From Anaerolineales bacterium (GTDB lineage Bacteria; Chloroflexota; Anaerolineae; Anaerolineales; Villigracilaceae), in assembly GCA_025938055.1 (NCBI GenBank), contig JAICQC010000144.1:1-10229 (forward strand): a stretch of DNA of 10,229 bases, in the 5' to 3' direction. Made by a program: the position numbers and the translations under genes. Below the pieces are notes generated by a model that did not search any database, was not told the origin of the DNA, and saw only the letters and a list, made by a program, of their open reading frames with translations. Position 1 is the first letter of the stretch; every line of letters starts with the position of its first letter. Below are positions 3,469-9,657 of this stretch, one piece after another.

Positions 3469-4074
3469 TCACGAGTGTAGAGGAAACGGCGCTGCACTTA
3501 CGTCAATGCCGTCCGCGGGCTCAATTACCAAGTGGACTAGCCAGTGATATTGCGCTGCATCATTTTGCGCCCGGAAGTGCAGGGTGTGTTCTCCCGGGTT
3601 CAGATTGGTCATCACGAGATTCCAGTCGGTCACTCTTGCGAAGACTTCCCGGATAGGCGAGGGGCTTGCGGGTATGGCGGGCATCACATAGTCGAACGTG
3701 CCGAAGGACTCCAGGTCTATCACGTGATCGTCAATCGCCAATTCCCATACGAGCTCTGTGCCACCCCGGTTCAGGAGAGCCTGGTCTGTCAGCAGGAAGA
3801 GATGCCCAATTGCCAGGGTTTGCCAGACAGGGGCGCGGCAGTGAAAGGTCCGGATGTGCGTGTTTTCTTCCGAAGTTGAACAGTACGCCCAGAGCGGAGG
3901 CGCATCCTCTGCTCCGGTCGTGACGATCATGCCATCGATTTGGTCACCCGACTCGAGCATAGGGGAAACGGAAAGCGGCTGAACGGCTGGCTGATGCAGT
4001 CCTTGTTGGCCGCAGGCAACACCAATCAGTGGAGCAAAGGCGGCGAATAGGAATATTCGAAAAAGCTTATTCAT
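3469..4074 (-). CDS. Predicted lipoprotein of unknown function
   Basis: A 201-residue protein. I place the start at ATG 4074 because the sequence there reads MNKLFRIFLFAAFAPLIGVACGQQG, a typical signal peptide (two Lys/Arg, hydrophobic core, lipobox-like GVAC with Cys20), preceded by AAGGAAA about 5 nt upstream. The open frame reaches back to 4218, but the extra 48 residues are basic and unlike a protein start. The lipid-anchored mature chain has a Ser/Pro/Gln linker, then a domain with WAYCST (one Cys) and FHCRAPVW (one Cys), which could form a disulfide, and later beta-type stretches ending in LNPGEHTLHFRAQN...HWLVHLVIE, reminiscent of Ig-like or carbohydrate-binding beta-sandwich ends. No family is recognised. 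It shares its upstream region with the giant regulator at 4297 and is transcribed away from it, so it may be controlled by, or be an extracytoplasmic partner of, that protein (inference). Confidence 0.8.
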   Translation of the reverse strand: MNKLFRIFLFAAFAPLIGVACGQQGLHQPAVQPLSVSPMLESGDQIDGMIVTTGAEDAPPLWAYCSTSEENTHIRTFHCRAPVWQTLAIGHLFLLTDQALLNRGGTELVWELAIDDHVIDLESFGTFDYVMPAIPASPSPIREVFARVTDWNLVMTNLNPGEHTLHFRAQNDAAQYHWLVHLVIEPADGIDVSAAPFPLHS

Positions 4075-4114
4075 CAGATTTCCTTTCTTATCAATGTCGT
4101 TCTCTGGGCCTCCA

Positions 4115-4135
4115 AAACATTCACGTTGAATGTTT
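4115..4135. promoter_or_regulatory. 21-bp palindrome, candidate operator in the divergent promoter region
   Basis: Two perfect 9-bp arms, AAACATTCA (4115-4123) and TGAATGTTT (4127-4135), surround CGT. A third half-site ACATTC recurs at 4140-4145, 23 bp from the first ACATTC at 4117-4122. The palindrome sits 41 bp upstream of the lipoprotein start and 162 bp upstream of the giant regulator. Size and symmetry fit a dimeric HTH repressor or activator; the cognate protein is unknown. Confidence 0.5.
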
Positions 4136-4192
4136 GACCACATTCTGACAGACCTCCATCTCCGCAGCGTCGCTGGGCAAGATAAAATCTTT

Positions 4193-4224
4193 GAGACGCA
4201 ACGGAGACGCCTAGGCAATATATT
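4193..4224 (+). promoter_or_regulatory. Candidate SARP/AfsR-type promoter with heptamer direct repeats
   Basis: GAGACGC occurs at 4193-4199 and again at 4204-4210, separated by exactly 4 bp (11-bp period). The second copy ends 8 bp before TATATT (4219-4224), a near-consensus -10 box. The -35 position (about 4196-4201, acgcaa) is not consensus and is covered by the repeats. Known SARP-type activators bind heptamer direct repeats with 4-bp spacers that end 8 bp upstream of the -10, overlapping a poor -35. The gene driven from here encodes a protein with that DNA-binding domain, so positive autoregulation is the natural reading (inference). A second -10-like TATACT lies at 4241-4246. Confidence 0.55.
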
Positions 4225-4284
4225 CCCCTTATAAGAGTGCTATACTCTATTTATTCATCCGGATTGATTCACATGGTGTGGGAA

Positions 4285-4291
4285 AAGGAGG
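4285..4291 (+). promoter_or_regulatory. Shine-Dalgarno site fixing the start of the giant regulator
   Basis: AAGGAGG lies 5 nt before ATG 4297, whose product begins MLQIRLLGQFDIRVDGK, the usual start of AfsR-like winged-helix domains. The in-frame GTG at 4237 and ATG at 4273 would add residues absent from that fold and lack a ribosome site. Confidence 0.8.
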
Positions 4292-4296
4292 ATGTA

Positions 4297-7200
4297 ATGC
4301 TCCAAATTCGACTTCTTGGGCAATTTGATATTCGCGTTGATGGGAAACGCGTCACAATCCCCACTCGGGCGGCTCAATCCCTGCTGGCATATCTTGTGCT
4401 GACTGCCGGAATCCCTCATCGGCGCGAAAAGCTAGCCGGAATCTTCTGGCCGGAGACGAGTGACGAAAACGCACGTAAGAACTTGCGGCAGGAATTGTGG
4501 CGAATCCGCAAAGCGATCTCTGCCCAAGGATCTTCAGAAGATGATTACTTCCTTGCCGATGAATTAACCCTGACGTTCAATCGCGACGGGGATTATTGGC
4601 TTGATGTGGCTCAGATCGAACGGCCCGATACCGATCTGCAATCCTTGACGACGAATCTCGCACTGTATCAGGGTGAACTGTTACCCGGTTTTTATGAGGA
4701 ATGGATCACAATCGAGCGAGAACGCGTGCAAGCCATCTTTGAAGCCCGGATGGCACAACTCCTCGAGCAGCTTATTACGAACGAACGCTGGGTCGCAGTA
4801 GAGGAATGGGGGGAACGCTGGCTGGCGTTCAGCGGTGCCCGAGAGCCTGCTTACCGGGCGCTGATGCTGGCAAGCGGCGCGCGTGGAGATATGGCAAAAG
4901 TCGCTTCGCTCTACCAGCGCTGCACGGACGAATTAATGGAAAAATTGGGAGTTGAGCCTTCTGCCGAGACACGTGCCCTGTACGATGGACTCTTGAAAGG
5001 TGCAAAGGCGCCACGCACACAGATACAGCCATCCGGGACGATTACGTTTCTCTTCACAGATATCGAAGGTTCCACGCGCCTGCTCGAAAAGCTCGGTGAT
5101 CAATACGCGGTCGCATTAAGTCAGCATCACGAGATCATGCGCGCCGCACTTCGAAAGTGGAATGGTCATGAAGTGGATACGCAGGGAGACGCGTTCTTTG
5201 TGACCTTCACCCGCGCCATTGACGCCGTACAATGCGCCGCCGACGCGCAACGTGCCTTCGCCACACATTCTTGGACTCCTGGCGCTCAATTGCGCGTGCG
5301 GATGGGCTTGCATACCGGAGAACCGCTCATCGCTTCGACGGGCTATGTGGGCATGGACGTACATCGCGCCGCCCGGATCGGCGACGTGGGTCACGGCGGG
5401 CAGGTGCTCCTTTCTCAAACAACACGGGATCTTGTAGTACAGGATCTGCCGCAGGGACTTTCCATCCGCGACCTCGACGATCATCGTTTGAAGGATATGA
5501 AGTATCCTGCTCCCATCTATCAACTGGTGATCGACGGGTTACCAGCTGAGTTCCCCCCTCTCAAGACAAAATTCACCGGTACGGAAGCACCCACACCAGG
5601 CGAACCACCCTTTAAGGGTTTGCAATATTTTGACGAAGGAGACTCGGATCTTTTCTTCGGACGCGAATTGCTGACCGCCAAACTAGTGCAGCGCCTAAGG
5701 GAGACGCGTTTTCTTTCGGTTGTCATCGGCGCCTCGGGCAGCGGAAAATCTTCCCTGGTCCGGGCGGGGCTGCTGCCTGCGTTGAAAAAAGGCGATCCGC
5801 TGCTAGATGGAACCAAGCCGCCAAAAGACAGCACCGAGTGGCACATTCACATTCTGACGCCGACGGCACATCCGCTCGAAGCGCTAGCTACAGAGCTGAC
5901 CCGGGAGTCCGAGTCGGTGACGGCAACAGCCACCTTGCTGGATGATCTCACGCGCGAGCCGCGCAGCCTGTCTCTGTTTCTCACCCGCAAATATCCAAAG
6001 GGACACACGCTGCTGGTCATGGATCAGTTCGAAGAGCTGTTCACCCTCTGCAGGGACGAATTCGAGCGTGAAGCATTCATTGATAACCTGTTGAGTGCGG
6101 TCACCCCGGAAAATAGCCATATCTCTCTCATCGTCACGCTCAGGGCAGATTTTTACGCGCATCTGTCTCAATATCCGGAGCTGCGCGAGCTGGTTGCCCG
6201 CCACCAGGAATATATCGGTCCCATGACGCCTGATGAGTTGCGGCGCGCCATGGAAGAACCTGCCCGGCGGGGTCACTGGGAATTTGAACCCGGGCTTGTC
6301 GATCTCATTTTGCGCGACGTCGGTGATGAGCCAGGCGCGCTGCCTCTGCTTTCACACGCTCTGCTGGAAACCTGGAAACGTCGCGCCGGACACATGCTCA
6401 CCCTCAAAGGCTATGCCGACGCTGGGGGAGTGCATGGGGCGATTGCCCATACGGCAGAAAGTGTCTATCAAAACCTGAGTGAGGAAGAGCAGGTGATTGC
6501 CCGCAACATCTTCCTCCGTCTCACTGAATTGGGCGAAGGGACAGAAGACACTCGGCGGCGCGCATCATTTGATGAGCTCATGTCACAGGAAGGCGATGCC
6601 AGCACGATTCGCAACGTCTTGAACACCTTAGCGGACGCTCGGCTGGTGACACTCTCCGAAGATATGGCGGAAGTCGCCCATGAGGCATTGATCCGCGAAT
6701 GGCCCACCTTGCGGGAGTGGTTGAATCAGGACAGGGAGGGCCTGCGCATGCATCGGCATCTGACCGAGTCCGCTCGTGACTGGGAATTGCTGGGGCGCGA
6801 TCCTGGTGCGTTGTATCGGGGCGCTCATCTGGCACAGGCGCGCGGGTGGGCCGCTTTGCATCCCAACGCGTTGAATGCAGAGGACCGCGCATTCCTAAAC
6901 GCCTCCCTCCAGCAGGAGCAACAGGAACAGCGCGAACGGGAAGAACAGCAGCAGCGTGAATTGGAGGCCGCGCAAAAACTGGCGGAAACGGAACGAGTAC
7001 GCGCAGAAGAGCAAGCCCACTCTGCTGCAAACCTGCGAAAACGTTCTTTCTACTTGAGCGTCGCATTAGTGATTGCCATGGTGTCCATCGGGGTCGCTGT
7101 CTGGTTCACGATCCAATCGCGTCAGCAAGCCATCAGTGCAGGTGCCAGAGAGTTAGGGACTCAGGCTGTTCTTCAACGAAACAATAATTTCCAAGTAGCA

Positions 7201-9657
7201 TTATTGCTCGGCATCGAAGCATTTCATACCAGGGATTTACCAGTGACGCGCGGTGCCTTATTCAATAGCACTGAGTCTACGCCTCAGTTGATTCGTTACC
7301 TTTCCGGACACAGTGACGCTGTACGTGGTGTGGATTTCAGCCCCGATGGCAAAACATTGGCTGTGGGTAGTTATGACAACACGATTATTCTGTGGGATAT
7401 GCAAACGGGTCAACGAATCGGCGAACCGCTGACGAGGCACACCGATGATATTTATGCTGTGGCTTTCAGCCCCGATGGCAAGACGTTAGCCTCCGCTGGC
7501 GCGGACAATATGATCGTACTCTGGGATTTGGAAACACATACACAAATAGGGGAACCGCTCACAGGACATATTGTTAGCGTGGGACCTCCTGGTGTAGGCA
7601 GTGTCGCCTTCAGCCCCGATGGCAAGATCCTGGCTTCAGGCGGATACGACAAGACGGTTATCCTGTGGGATGTGCAAACGCACCGACAAATTGGGGAACC
7701 TCTAAAGATTCATAACGATGCTGTCGCTAGTGTTGCCTTCAGCCCCGATGGCAAAACTTTGGCGTCAGGTAGCATTGATAACACGATCATCCTGTGGGAC
7801 GTGGAAACGCACCGACAAACTGGAGAGCCCCTGCAGGGGCATAGCGGTAGAGTATTTAGCGTCGCCTTCAGCCCCGATGGCAAAACTTTGGCGTCAGGTA
7901 GCGACGATAACACGATCATCCTGTGGGACGTGGAAACGCATCAACAAATCGGTGAGCGCCTGCAAGGACATACCAATGCCATATTTAGTGTCGCCTTTCA
8001 TCCCAATGGCAGAACACTCGCCTCGGGCAGCGATGACCTAACTATTATTCTATGGGACGTGGAATCGCATCGACAAATCGGAGAGCCCTTGCGGGGACAT
8101 AGCGGTAGAGTATTTAACGTCGCCTTTAGCCCCGATGGCAAAACACTGGCATCGGGCAGCTGGGATAGCAACGTGATCTTATGGGATCTGGAAATACATC
8201 GGCAGATCAGAAAACAACTGCCAGAACTAAGTGACATATCGAGCGTTGCCTTTAGCCCGGATGGGAAAACATTGGCCCTGAGCAGCTACACCAACACTAT
8301 TATCTTGGGGAATCGGGAAACGCAGCAGCAGACTGGAGAATCGCTCGAGGGGCACAAAGCTCCCGTGGTGAGCATAGGCTTCAGCCCCGATGGCAAAACG
8401 CTGGCTTCCATCGATGCGGAAAGCACTATCATTCTATGGAATGTGCAAACACATCGCCCGATCGGGGAATCGTTCGAAGGACAGAGCAGGGTAACTAGCA
8501 TAGCATTCAGCCCTGATGGTAGAAGGCTCGTTTCCGGCGGCGAGGATCAAATGATTACGCTATGGGACGTGCAAACGCGCCGACAAATCGGAGAAGCGCT
8601 CCAGGTGAACAGTGGTCTTATAGACAGTGTGACCTTTAGCCCCAATGGCAAGGTCGTTGCTGTAGGAAATAGGGATGGCATCATCACCCTGTGGGATGTC
8701 GAATCAAACCAACCGATTGGTGAGCCGCTCCAGGGACACGGTGGACCGGTCAGCAGGGTAGTTTTCAGCCCTGATGGCAAAACACTTGCGTCAGGTAGCT
8801 GGGATGGTGCTATCATTTTGTGGGACGTGCAAACGCACCAACCGATTGGAGCGCCACTGCAGGCACATTCACGGCGTGTACTGGGCTTAGCCTTCAGCAC
8901 TGATGGAAAAAATCTAATTTCGGGCAGTGATGATCAAACGATGAGTGCGTGGGATTGGGATCCATCATCGTGGATTCAAAAAGGTTGTCAACGAGCAAGT
9001 CGTAATTTTACAAATGACGAGTGGAAACAATATTTCTCCGGCACAGAGTATCGTAAACCTTGTGAACAGTTCCCCAGGCATTCGAGTTATTACGAGGCGA
9101 TCGCGAACAAGTTGCTTGTGGATTTCAAGGATCTAGACCAAATTCAACAAGCCCTGGACGGCGTACGGCATGAAATGGAGTCAGATTCGGCGATCCATGA
9201 TCCAACCATCACCTCGAACAAGCTCGTTTCAGAATTAGTAGCAAATAGGATTAAGGCTATACCTAGTAGTGAACCGCAGAAAATCTTAGATTCACTCAAA
9301 CTGGCAGAAGCGAATCAGTTAATATTGGCCCCATTCTTAAACGACCCCAATTTTCTGAACGGCTTATGTTGGCATGGATCTCTACAAGGTTTTGTCGCCC
9401 GGGTATTCAGGTATTGTGAACAAGCTGTAGACCTGGCGCCAGGTGATGCAAGTATTCGGGATAGTCGGGGTTTGGCACGCGCGCTCACCGGTAACTACGC
9501 CGGGGCAATTGAGGATTTTCAATTTTTCGTTGATAACGAAAAACGTGAAGTGTTCATCCCCAATATGATTCAACAACGTCAACAATGGATCATGGATCTC
9601 AAGGTAGGGAGAGATCCATTCACGCCGGAGATGTTGGAGGAATTGATGAGTGAGTAA
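4297..9657 (+). CDS. AfsR-like activator fused to cyclase-like, nSTAND1 ATPase, membrane and WD40 domains
   Basis: A 1786-residue membrane-anchored signalling protein. Domains: OmpR/AfsR winged helix 1-95 (ARKNLRQELWRIRKAI 59-74); BTAD helical repeats about 99-235; class III nucleotide cyclase-like domain about 247-410 with metal-site Asp255 (FTDIEGS) and Asp298 (QGDAF), but Asp294 and His356 where active enzymes usually have Lys and Asn; nSTAND1 ATPase from about 438 with Walker A GASGSGKSS 478-486 and Walker B LLVMDQFEELF 572-582; Gln/Glu-rich coiled coil 870-905; one membrane span 918-939, preceded by RKR; 13 WD40 repeats 1005-1565; a C-terminal region with four Cys and a TPR-like segment about 1686-1745. 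The RKR flank predicts DNA-binding part inside and WD40 part outside. Likely role: sensing by the propellers, ATP-dependent switching, transcription control; the ligand and targets are unknown. It is monocistronic, with the lipoprotein gene divergent upstream. Confidence 0.9.
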   Translation: MLQIRLLGQFDIRVDGKRVTIPTRAAQSLLAYLVLTAGIPHRREKLAGIFWPETSDENARKNLRQELWRIRKAISAQGSSEDDYFLADELTLTFNRDGDYWLDVAQIERPDTDLQSLTTNLALYQGELLPGFYEEWITIERERVQAIFEARMAQLLEQLITNERWVAVEEWGERWLAFSGAREPAYRALMLASGARGDMAKVASLYQRCTDELMEKLGVEPSAETRALYDGLLKGAKAPRTQIQPSGTITFLFTDIEGSTRLLEKLGDQYAVALSQHHEIMRAALRKWNGHEVDTQGDAFFVTFTRAIDAVQCAADAQRAFATHSWTPGAQLRVRMGLHTGEPLIASTGYVGMDVHRAARIGDVGHGGQVLLSQTTRDLVVQDLPQGLSIRDLDDHRLKDMKYPAPIYQLVIDGLPAEFPPLKTKFTGTEAPTPGEPPFKGLQYFDEGDSDLFFGRELLTAKLVQRLRETRFLSVVIGASGSGKSSLVRAGLLPALKKGDPLLDGTKPPKDSTEWHIHILTPTAHPLEALATELTRESESVTATATLLDDLTREPRSLSLFLTRKYPKGHTLLVMDQFEELFTLCRDEFEREAFIDNLLSAVTPENSHISLIVTLRADFYAHLSQYPELRELVARHQEYIGPMTPDELRRAMEEPARRGHWEFEPGLVDLILRDVGDEPGALPLLSHALLETWKRRAGHMLTLKGYADAGGVHGAIAHTAESVYQNLSEEEQVIARNIFLRLTELGEGTEDTRRRASFDELMSQEGDASTIRNVLNTLADARLVTLSEDMAEVAHEALIREWPTLREWLNQDREGLRMHRHLTESARDWELLGRDPGALYRGAHLAQARGWAALHPNALNAEDRAFLNASLQQEQQEQREREEQQQRELEAAQKLAETERVRAEEQAHSAANLRKRSFYLSVALVIAMVSIGVAVWFTIQSRQQAISAGARELGTQAVLQRNNNFQVALLLGIEAFHTRDLPVTRGALFNSTESTPQLIRYLSGHSDAVRGVDFSPDGKTLAVGSYDNTIILWDMQTGQRIGEPLTRHTDDIYAVAFSPDGKTLASAGADNMIVLWDLETHTQIGEPLTGHIVSVGPPGVGSVAFSPDGKILASGGYDKTVILWDVQTHRQIGEPLKIHNDAVASVAFSPDGKTLASGSIDNTIILWDVETHRQTGEPLQGHSGRVFSVAFSPDGKTLASGSDDNTIILWDVETHQQIGERLQGHTNAIFSVAFHPNGRTLASGSDDLTIILWDVESHRQIGEPLRGHSGRVFNVAFSPDGKTLASGSWDSNVILWDLEIHRQIRKQLPELSDISSVAFSPDGKTLALSSYTNTIILGNRETQQQTGESLEGHKAPVVSIGFSPDGKTLASIDAESTIILWNVQTHRPIGESFEGQSRVTSIAFSPDGRRLVSGGEDQMITLWDVQTRRQIGEALQVNSGLIDSVTFSPNGKVVAVGNRDGIITLWDVESNQPIGEPLQGHGGPVSRVVFSPDGKTLASGSWDGAIILWDVQTHQPIGAPLQAHSRRVLGLAFSTDGKNLISGSDDQTMSAWDWDPSSWIQKGCQRASRNFTNDEWKQYFSGTEYRKPCEQFPRHSSYYEAIANKLLVDFKDLDQIQQALDGVRHEMESDSAIHDPTITSNKLVSELVANRIKAIPSSEPQKILDSLKLAEANQLILAPFLNDPNFLNGLCWHGSLQGFVARVFRYCEQAVDLAPGDASIRDSRGLARALTGNYAGAIEDFQFFVDNEKREVFIPNMIQQRQQWIMDLKVGRDPFTPEMLEELMSE
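7309..8961 (+). repeat. Tandem WD40-encoding repeats, 129-bp unit, 13 copies
   Basis: The coding DNA repeats with a period of 129 bp (43 residues), each unit carrying FSPDGKTLASGS and ILWDVETH. Units start at residues 1005, 1048, 1091, 1139, 1182, 1225, 1268, 1311, 1353, 1396, 1438, 1481 and 1524. Unit 3 has five extra residues (GPPGV region), and units 8, 10 and 11 lack the Gly-His start; unit 8 also lacks the Trp-Asp. Units 4 and 5 are 74/77 identical at DNA level (7735-7811 against 7864-7940). This is protein-repeat DNA, not an intergenic repeat. Confidence 0.9.

Follow-up and report, generated by a model that had tools for sequence, protein, structure and literature searches.

The window, by which we mean the whole 10,229-nucleotide stretch of Anaerolineales DNA analysed, contains an open frame for a giant SARP regulator of 1786 amino acids (4297–9657, plus strand), whose ATG is preceded by a ribosome-binding site, AAAGGAGG (4284–4291). 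From its N terminus the protein comprises a SARP domain (4297–4995), consisting of an OmpR-type winged helix and a BTAD (PF03704, residues 108–233); a class III adenylate/guanylate cyclase-like domain (PF00211, 2.2e-12; 5050–5490); an nSTAND1 NTPase domain (PF20703, residues 438–836; 5608–6804); a predicted transmembrane helix at about residues 917–940 (7045–7116); and WD40 repeats at about residues 1052–1554 (7450–8958). Nine 19-residue hydropathy windows exceed 1.6, and the six best all lie at 917–922.

Pfam finds no domain other than the BTAD within residues 1–250, the winged helix lies at the N terminus, and the predicted fold of this N-terminal domain resembles those of AfsR and EmbR, OmpR/PhoB effector domains appearing from Foldseek rank 7 on. 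A preliminary description of this DNA had placed the first domain in the SARP class, in agreement with this domain order and predicted fold; the architecture of an OmpR/PhoB response regulator, a receiver and a winged helix without BTAD, is not that of the giant protein. The same description called the protein AfsR-like, a loose term here. NB-ARC, the central domain of large SARPs of the AfsR type, is not among the matches at 1e-3 for residues 431–901, which match nSTAND1 (2.2e-134) in its place and, weakly, AAA_16, NACHT and nSTAND6; the cyclase-like, transmembrane and WD40 parts are additions; and a TPR_9 trace at about residues 1701–1748 scores 33.4 bits, under the Pfam cut-off of 35.

A search with residues 1–450 gave 6774 matches among 7993 scored, and the best 120, those listed, all have at least 72% identity. 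The matches listed include P0139, which bears an Anaerolineales name (94% identity over 87%); some matches are named "WD40 repeat protein/DNA-binding SARP family transcriptional activator" by JGI. The same region is present in the nearest genome (G001), which has five SARP-domain genes at E 1e-3 or better, that is, four paralogues (C390, C396, C107 and C345) besides the giant gene.

Divergent from the giant gene lies the gene of a predicted lipoprotein of 201 amino acids (3469–4074, minus strand; MNKLF...GVAC, lipobox identified by eye) with no Pfam match. Its family numbers 180 homologues at E 1e-3 and is present in 6 of 150 relatives; neighbourhoods were viewed in G001 and the window. Another large one-component regulator, with HTH_3/HTH_31 and an AAA ATPase-like part (AAA_16 just below the cut-off), is encoded at 83–1573 on the minus strand.

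The heptamer repeat and its −10 box

The intergenic region (4075–4296) contains two copies of GAGACGC on the plus strand (4193–4199 and 4204–4210), the second beginning 11 bp after the first, with a 4-bp spacer between them. Eight base pairs (4211–4218) separate the second copy, which lies 86 bp upstream of the ATG, from TATATT (4219–4224), the −10 box of a candidate promoter that we call P1. P1 has no −35 element, since the hexamers 15–19 bp upstream of TATATT are GCAACG, CGCAAC, ACGCAA, GACGCA and AGACGC. Each element of this layout had been reported in the preliminary description and is present in the sequence. A SARP operator is recognised by direct repeats 11 or 22 bp apart, as found at 4193–4210, and by a 3′ repeat lying 8 bp from a −10 with a poor or absent −35, as found at 4193–4224; the accessible part of the published rule gives the same repeat periods and −10 distance (PMC10936776) and bears out the likeness to Streptomyces SARP/AfsR sites proposed earlier.

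The geometry, and not the heptamer, carries the weight, because the count of GAGACGC is by itself unremarkable (four copies in the window versus 1.49 expected; 15 of 200 shuffles reach four). Among 5000 dinucleotide shuffles of the intergenic region, a perfect 7-mer repeat arose at a period of 11 bp in 33 and at any period of 7–22 bp in 651; an 11-bp repeat followed 8 bp on by TANNNT arose in none.

The same pair can be read on the minus strand, where TATCTT also lies 8 bp away, as GCGTCTC-CGTT-GCGTCTC-AAAGATTT-TATCTT (−10 at 4184–4179), and would then serve the lipoprotein gene only. Although the geometry is likewise exact in this direction, and the sites of distant relatives face away from the SARP gene (see below), such a use is very unlikely: the minus-strand TATCTT is kept in neither of two relatives, G065 and G263; the polarity nnRACGn toward the −10, which most of the listed minus-strand sites of distant relatives display, falls on the plus strand in the window; and a separate minus-strand site with that polarity is present at 4142–4173. 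This weaker candidate, GCGACGC-TGCG-GAGATGG-AGGTCTGT-CAGAAT, faces the lipoprotein gene; its heptamers are alike at four of seven positions and its putative −10 is CAGAAT.

Conservation in the closest relatives

A search with the N-terminal domain found relatives in G263 (L101, 72% identity), in G065 (L126/L144, a shortened protein with 72% identity over 124 residues), and, at 55–59% identity, in G607 (two genes) and at locus L007, whose contig also occurs in G643. The promoter reads GAGACGC-TAAA-AAGACGG-CAAAAAGG-TATCTT in G263, GAGACGT-AAAA-AAGACGC-ATTTGGTC-TAAATT in G065, GAGACGC-TAAA-AAGACAC-CGCTTGGC-TAAAGT and GAGACGG-AAAT-TTAACGG-GGCAATCG-TAAAGT in G607 (contigs C336 and C358, respectively), and TAGATGT-AAAA-TAGATGC-GCTGGGTG-TATTGA in L007, where the final hexamer base deviates from TANNNT. 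The −10 stands at the distance seen in the window in G065, G263 and L007, and in a MAFFT alignment of these three with the window both the repeats and the −10 TA fall into register. The site starts 57 and 241 bp from the ATG in the two G607 genes versus 104 bp in the window. Invariant columns, counted with the ribosome-binding site and coding part left out, make up 14 of 17 in the operator versus 43 of 165 elsewhere for the window, G065 and G263 (p 7.6e-6), and 10 of 16 versus 25 of 154 with L007 added (p 1.4e-4).

We assembled the upstreams of 62 SARP homologues, of which G683 (18 bp) and G643 (the contig of L007) were dropped, leaving 60 (set A). At a threshold of at least 9/14 heptamer positions, a site facing its own SARP gene occurs in 5 of these 60, every one at a gene with at least 55% identity; L007, with TATTGA as its hexamer, is a sixth. 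Four genes at 55–57% identity with usable upstreams (G431, G698, G132 and G113) are without a self-facing site. Aligning the upstreams of close homologues, the check proposed at the outset, thus yields conserved heptamers and a −10 at 8 bp, and does so for the closest relatives only. Close orthologues were found in 1 of 24 genomes of the family of G263 (G263 itself) and in 2 of 6 of the family of G607 (G607 and G643).

The shortened gene in G065 (L276; G065:C109, 4717–5136, minus strand) is a 139-codon frame, ahead of which the operator and both promoter boxes are present. Alignment A2 shows a difference in the recognition-helix region, at residue 66 of the window protein: the window, L101 (G263), L007/L146 and L152 have RxELWR, and the remaining 12 of 17 rows have RxALW or another residue. 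Judged by these rows, RxELWR may accompany the GAGACGC-type heptamer, yet L152 (G542) is without such a site.

A 32-base pattern was scanned through five whole genomes, allowing at most three mismatches. The single best match is the SARP-gene promoter in both G263 and G065, with two mismatches each; in G607 the best match precedes the C336 gene and is seen again at the end of contig C239. The L007 promoter is missing from the G643 matches because it has six mismatches to the window pattern. G001 gave 10 matches versus 12 for the reversed control, and because totals do not exceed that control the scan is evidence on place, not number. Genome-wide enrichment of the bare pair GAGACGC-N4-GAGACGC was rejected, with five matches in 150 relatives versus seven for the reversed pattern, and the matches listed hold no excess of GAGACGC pairs at spacing 4. 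The lack of enrichment and the G001 totals are what a chance repeat beside an A+T-rich hexamer in intergenic DNA would produce. Chance is, however, already disfavoured because the operator is conserved in the closest relatives, and none of the 5000 shuffles reproduced it; we regard a coincidence as hardly credible. It is well supported, by geometry according to the rule (PMC10936776, accessible part), conservation in the closest orthologues and an AfsR/EmbR-like N-terminal fold, that 4193–4224 is a SARP-type operator.

Sites at other SARP genes

A second collection, set B, comprises 80 distant SARP genes (101 relatives), hand-picked from the best rows listed with a query start of at most 5, and served as an independent test. 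Rows with later starts and rows in set A were left out; a few others, namely G095:C124, G095:C223, G108:C599, G124:C430 and G125:C14, were passed over owing to short upstreams, stops or oversight. The GAGACGC-anchored count scored a heptamer pair (at least 10/14) with TANNNT across 13 spacers and 13 distances. In the 60 upstreams of set A, which contains the sequences that prompted the geometry idea, a spacer of 4 with a distance of 8 is the maximum on both strands. On the coding strand this cell has 4 and no other has more than 3; on the opposite strand it has 6, followed by 4 for spacer 3/distance 8 and no more than 2 elsewhere. On the opposite strand of set B this cell holds 7 at a threshold of at least 9/14 versus a mean of 0.37 (next 3), 2 versus 0.12 at 10/14, and 1 at 11/14; on the coding strand it holds 0.

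When the heptamer was left unnamed (6/7 identical), pairs with a spacer of 4 on the opposite strand of set B numbered 10, 11 and 7 of 80 at distances 8, 9 and 10, with a mean of 0.8 per cell. For this test three near-duplicates (G315, G493 and G367) were also removed from set A, leaving 57. On the coding strand, spacer 4/distance 8 is then the fullest cell, with 4 versus at most 3 in any other; the opposite strand has just 1 there, from the window group. Because repeats longer than seven slide, the unnamed-heptamer test fixes the 11-bp period and not the distance; the distance of 8 rests on the GAGACGC-anchored tests. On the coding strand of set B, the commonest cells combine a spacer of 4 with TANNNT at 14 or 15 bp (5/80 each).

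The exact geometry was compared in set B less three near-duplicates (77 genes). It occurs in 9 of the 77 on the opposite strand and in none on the coding strand; shuffles gave 0.35, with a maximum of 3 in 200. Controls, the upstreams of open frames of at least 180 amino acids in other loci, gave 3 and 4 of 255, with a G+C content of 0.64 versus 0.51. OmpR/PhoB winged helices also bind direct repeats of 11-bp period that replace the −35. A response-regulator box of that type would be compatible with the fold shared by the SARP winged helix and the OmpR/PhoB effector domains (Foldseek ranks 7 on), and according to the accessible part of PMC10972967 the AfsR site of Streptomyces is a recognition site for PhoP as well. 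The association of the geometry with SARP upstreams (9 of 77 on one strand versus 3 and 4 of 255 others, the latter richer in G+C) argues against such a box, which we consider quite improbable.

Sites of this type thus go together with SARP genes and are for the most part directed away from them; a self-facing orientation is characteristic of the closest relatives of the window. The heptamers vary between genes: in set B, a weight matrix trained on set A passes 4 of 77 (minus) and 3 of 77 (plus), with 1.5 expected, and was rejected as a finder of set B sites for its lack of transfer. Ten set B sites were followed to their targets. A plausible gene start lies within 250 bp of six, two of them before lipoprotein-like proteins and four before small proteins alike by eye; at the other four the gene is unclear or absent, or the contig ends. 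Small proteins of about 80 amino acids behind SARP-type sites in L204, L208, L260 and L267 are alike by eye (FLLRxW...W...G-R..F..L).

Several sites lie ahead of members of the lipoprotein family or of other lipoproteins. On contig C396 of G001, a gene truncated by the contig end resembles a second member of the family (by eye, near P0007), is divergent from another SARP gene and is preceded by GACACGT-CTGC-GACACGC-CCGCTGCG-TACACT. A third member, on C53 (46%), is preceded by GACACGT-TCGC-GACACGC-CCCTTCAA-TAGACT; C53 also begins with a fourth copy, which is partial. On C390 a different lipoprotein is divergent from a SARP gene, with GAGACGG-AAAG-CCGACGC-GCCATCCG-TAAACT. No window-type divergent operator was found before the neighbours in G263 and G065. 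A near-copy of the C53 and C396 sites, GACACGT-TCGC-GACACGC-N8-TATATT, lies at 803–834 of L281 (G001:C287); no open frame of at least 51 codons starts within 400 bp of it, and the contig also carries two lipoproteins resembling that of C390. On divergent strands, G465 (L154/L272) has GAGACGC-TGCG-TTAACGG-N8-TATGGT before a lipoprotein-like protein, and G698 (L147/L271) has a run of three repeats, with TATAGT 8 bp past the final one, ahead of a protein with a hydrophobic N terminus.

These neighbouring sites bear on the identity of the binder. Another SARP paralogue might occupy the operator, making the giant protein a cascade target and not its own activator. G001 does have five SARP-domain genes, and the divergent-side sites at the SARP genes of C390 and C396 resemble that of the window, so that paralogue heptamers overlap in sequence. 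In G001, G263 and G065, the heptamer nevertheless stays beside the SARP orthologue, the orthologous promoter is the best match genome-wide in the latter two, and the gene-to-gene variation of set B repeats favours a local binder; a paralogue as binder is, in our judgement, unlikely.

Four other exact GAGACGC pairs occur in the 150 relatives. That of L066/L270 (G103:C67, about 5886), GAGACGCTTTTGAGACGC-TTGCTTAC-TATACT, has the window's exact geometry (N8) and precedes secreted-type proteins; by eye, none of the neighbouring open frames listed is a SARP gene. No promoter fit was seen at L067. At L068 and L069 the pair is flanked by a small SARP gene and a tail-sheath gene, and CATAAT follows at 30 bp, not 8. 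In L268 (G053:C121, 1766–4676) and L269 (G072:C37, 730–3598) a small SARP gene (312–326 amino acids; BTAD 2.2e-19 in L268) stands directly 5′ of a phage-tail-sheath-like gene (PF04984 and PF17482), an arrangement alike in the two genomes. Between the two genes are a GAGACGC tandem, more degenerate repeats and CATAAT 30 bp past the second GAGACGC; a FLLRxW-like small protein (2826–3137 of L268) opens the sheath cluster.

Proposed autoregulation and known systems

A second candidate promoter, P2, with the extended −10 TGC-TATACT, lies at 4238–4246 on the plus strand. Of the 60 set A upstreams, 26 have TGnTATACT within 200 bp, so that P2 is commoner there than P1; the opposite strand has it in none of the 60, and set B in 2 of 80. 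By these counts P2 is very likely real. Among genes with self-facing sites, TGnTATACT is found in G001 and G065 and not in G263, the two G607 genes or L007. TATACT at 4241 had been named in the preliminary description as an alternative start, and it is a serious rival, if on balance a rather improbable one: P2 could be the main promoter, with the heptamers 30 bp above its −10 forming an upstream activator or repressor site like that of PimR. The 26 upstreams, including that of G065, suit this reading, as do the CATAAT hexamers of L268 and L269, which resemble a −10, and the spacing itself, 30 bp being 8 plus two helical turns; PimR, in the accessible part of PMC3367932, binds 55 nt upstream of its target's −35. 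Against P2 as the main promoter, G263 has the site with TATCTT at 8 bp and no TGnTATACT, a −10-like hexamer is kept at 8 bp in the site-bearing relatives (off-consensus in L007), the spacer 4/distance 8 cell stands out, and most P2-type boxes belong to upstreams that lack a self-facing site.

Since the operator faces the SARP gene itself, positive autoregulation by the giant protein appears the likeliest use of it. We propose that 4193–4224 is a SARP-type activator site in the giant gene's own promoter, through which the protein raises its own synthesis, with P2 giving basal expression and the lipoprotein co-activated, and we put the probability of this reading at roughly 0.55. P1, with two GAGACGC heptamers on one helix face, TATATT 8 bp on and no −35, would be a weak promoter. 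Two copies of the SARP domain would bind next to each other on the heptamers, in the position from which sigma region 4 otherwise reads a −35, and would recruit RNA polymerase, leading to more giant protein. P2 would supply the basal level, and the weaker minus-strand site would co-activate the divergent lipoprotein gene. By analogy with PimR, which acts at a distance, the weighting of the promoters could also be reversed, the heptamers lying 30 bp upstream of P2. Confinement of the self-facing site to the closest relatives, the wider occurrence of P2 than of P1, and the fact that PimR is not autoregulated all speak against this reading, as do the absence of coding-strand sites in set B, the varying distance to the ATG in G607, the six mismatches of L007, the low count of the unnamed-heptamer test in set A and the failure of the set A matrix to transfer to set B.

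Most of what is known of SARPs concerns the control of antibiotics in actinobacteria. If their operator rule is kept in Chloroflexota, the sigma adaptation at promoters without a −35 would be older or more widely spread, and targets of many uncharacterised SARP-STAND proteins of uncultured bacteria could be predicted from sequence; the self-facing or away-facing orientation of the site makes feedback directly testable. We suggest, tentatively and with more doubt than confidence, that Anaerolineae-type Chloroflexota have a large undescribed group of SARPs, membrane-spanning and soluble, whose operators follow the canonical 11-bp/8-bp layout with a heptamer particular to each regulator. The majority of sites would face neighbours (lipoproteins, the small-protein family and possibly the tail-sheath cluster), and the clade of the window would have turned the site on itself; with its SARP domain in the cytoplasm and its WD40 propeller on the far side of the membrane, the protein would sense the envelope and amplify itself and its lipoprotein partner.

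Among known regulators, EmbR carries an FHA domain. The Mycobacterium tuberculosis protein (PDB 2fez, 2ff4) differs from the giant protein in having no transmembrane helix and in its targets. AfsR, bound to the afs box of the Streptomyces coelicolor afsS promoter (PDB 8k60, 8hvr), shows about 22% identity in structural alignment with the giant protein. In the accessible descriptions AfsR combines NOD and TPR domains, where the giant protein has cyclase-like, nSTAND1, transmembrane and WD40 parts, and its site precedes afsS, not afsR itself, in contrast to the window site.

A further comparison is with the SARP-LALs of Streptomyces (PimR, SanG and FilR), which, in the accessible parts of PMC3367932 and PMC10972967, join a SARP to a part homologous to guanylate cyclase and a large ATPase and have a known intergenic operator. 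The giant protein has a cyclase-like part (PF00211, 2.2e-12), and its ATPase is nSTAND1 (2.2e-134) with a transmembrane helix and WD40 repeats, where PimR has its LAL half. The operator of PimR likewise consists of heptamers with 4-bp spacers and lies between two regulatory genes; as described there, however, PimR is not autoregulated and its site lies off the −35, while the window site faces the SARP gene (PMC3367932).

A search of the literature, with subscription papers mostly outside its reach, found no account of a SARP-type operator in Chloroflexota; the accessible text linking SARPs with Chloroflexi concerns an MmyB-like regulator. To call the layout new outside actinobacteria, as had been done at first, overstates the case: GSU1771, a SARP of Geobacter sulfurreducens, binds the promoter of its own gene, which it is said to activate, according to the accessible part of PMC10599522, where no operator geometry is given. 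It carries a receiver domain where the giant protein has its cyclase-like, NTPase and WD40 parts, and resembles it in being a SARP outside actinobacteria that acts on its own promoter, as we propose for the window.
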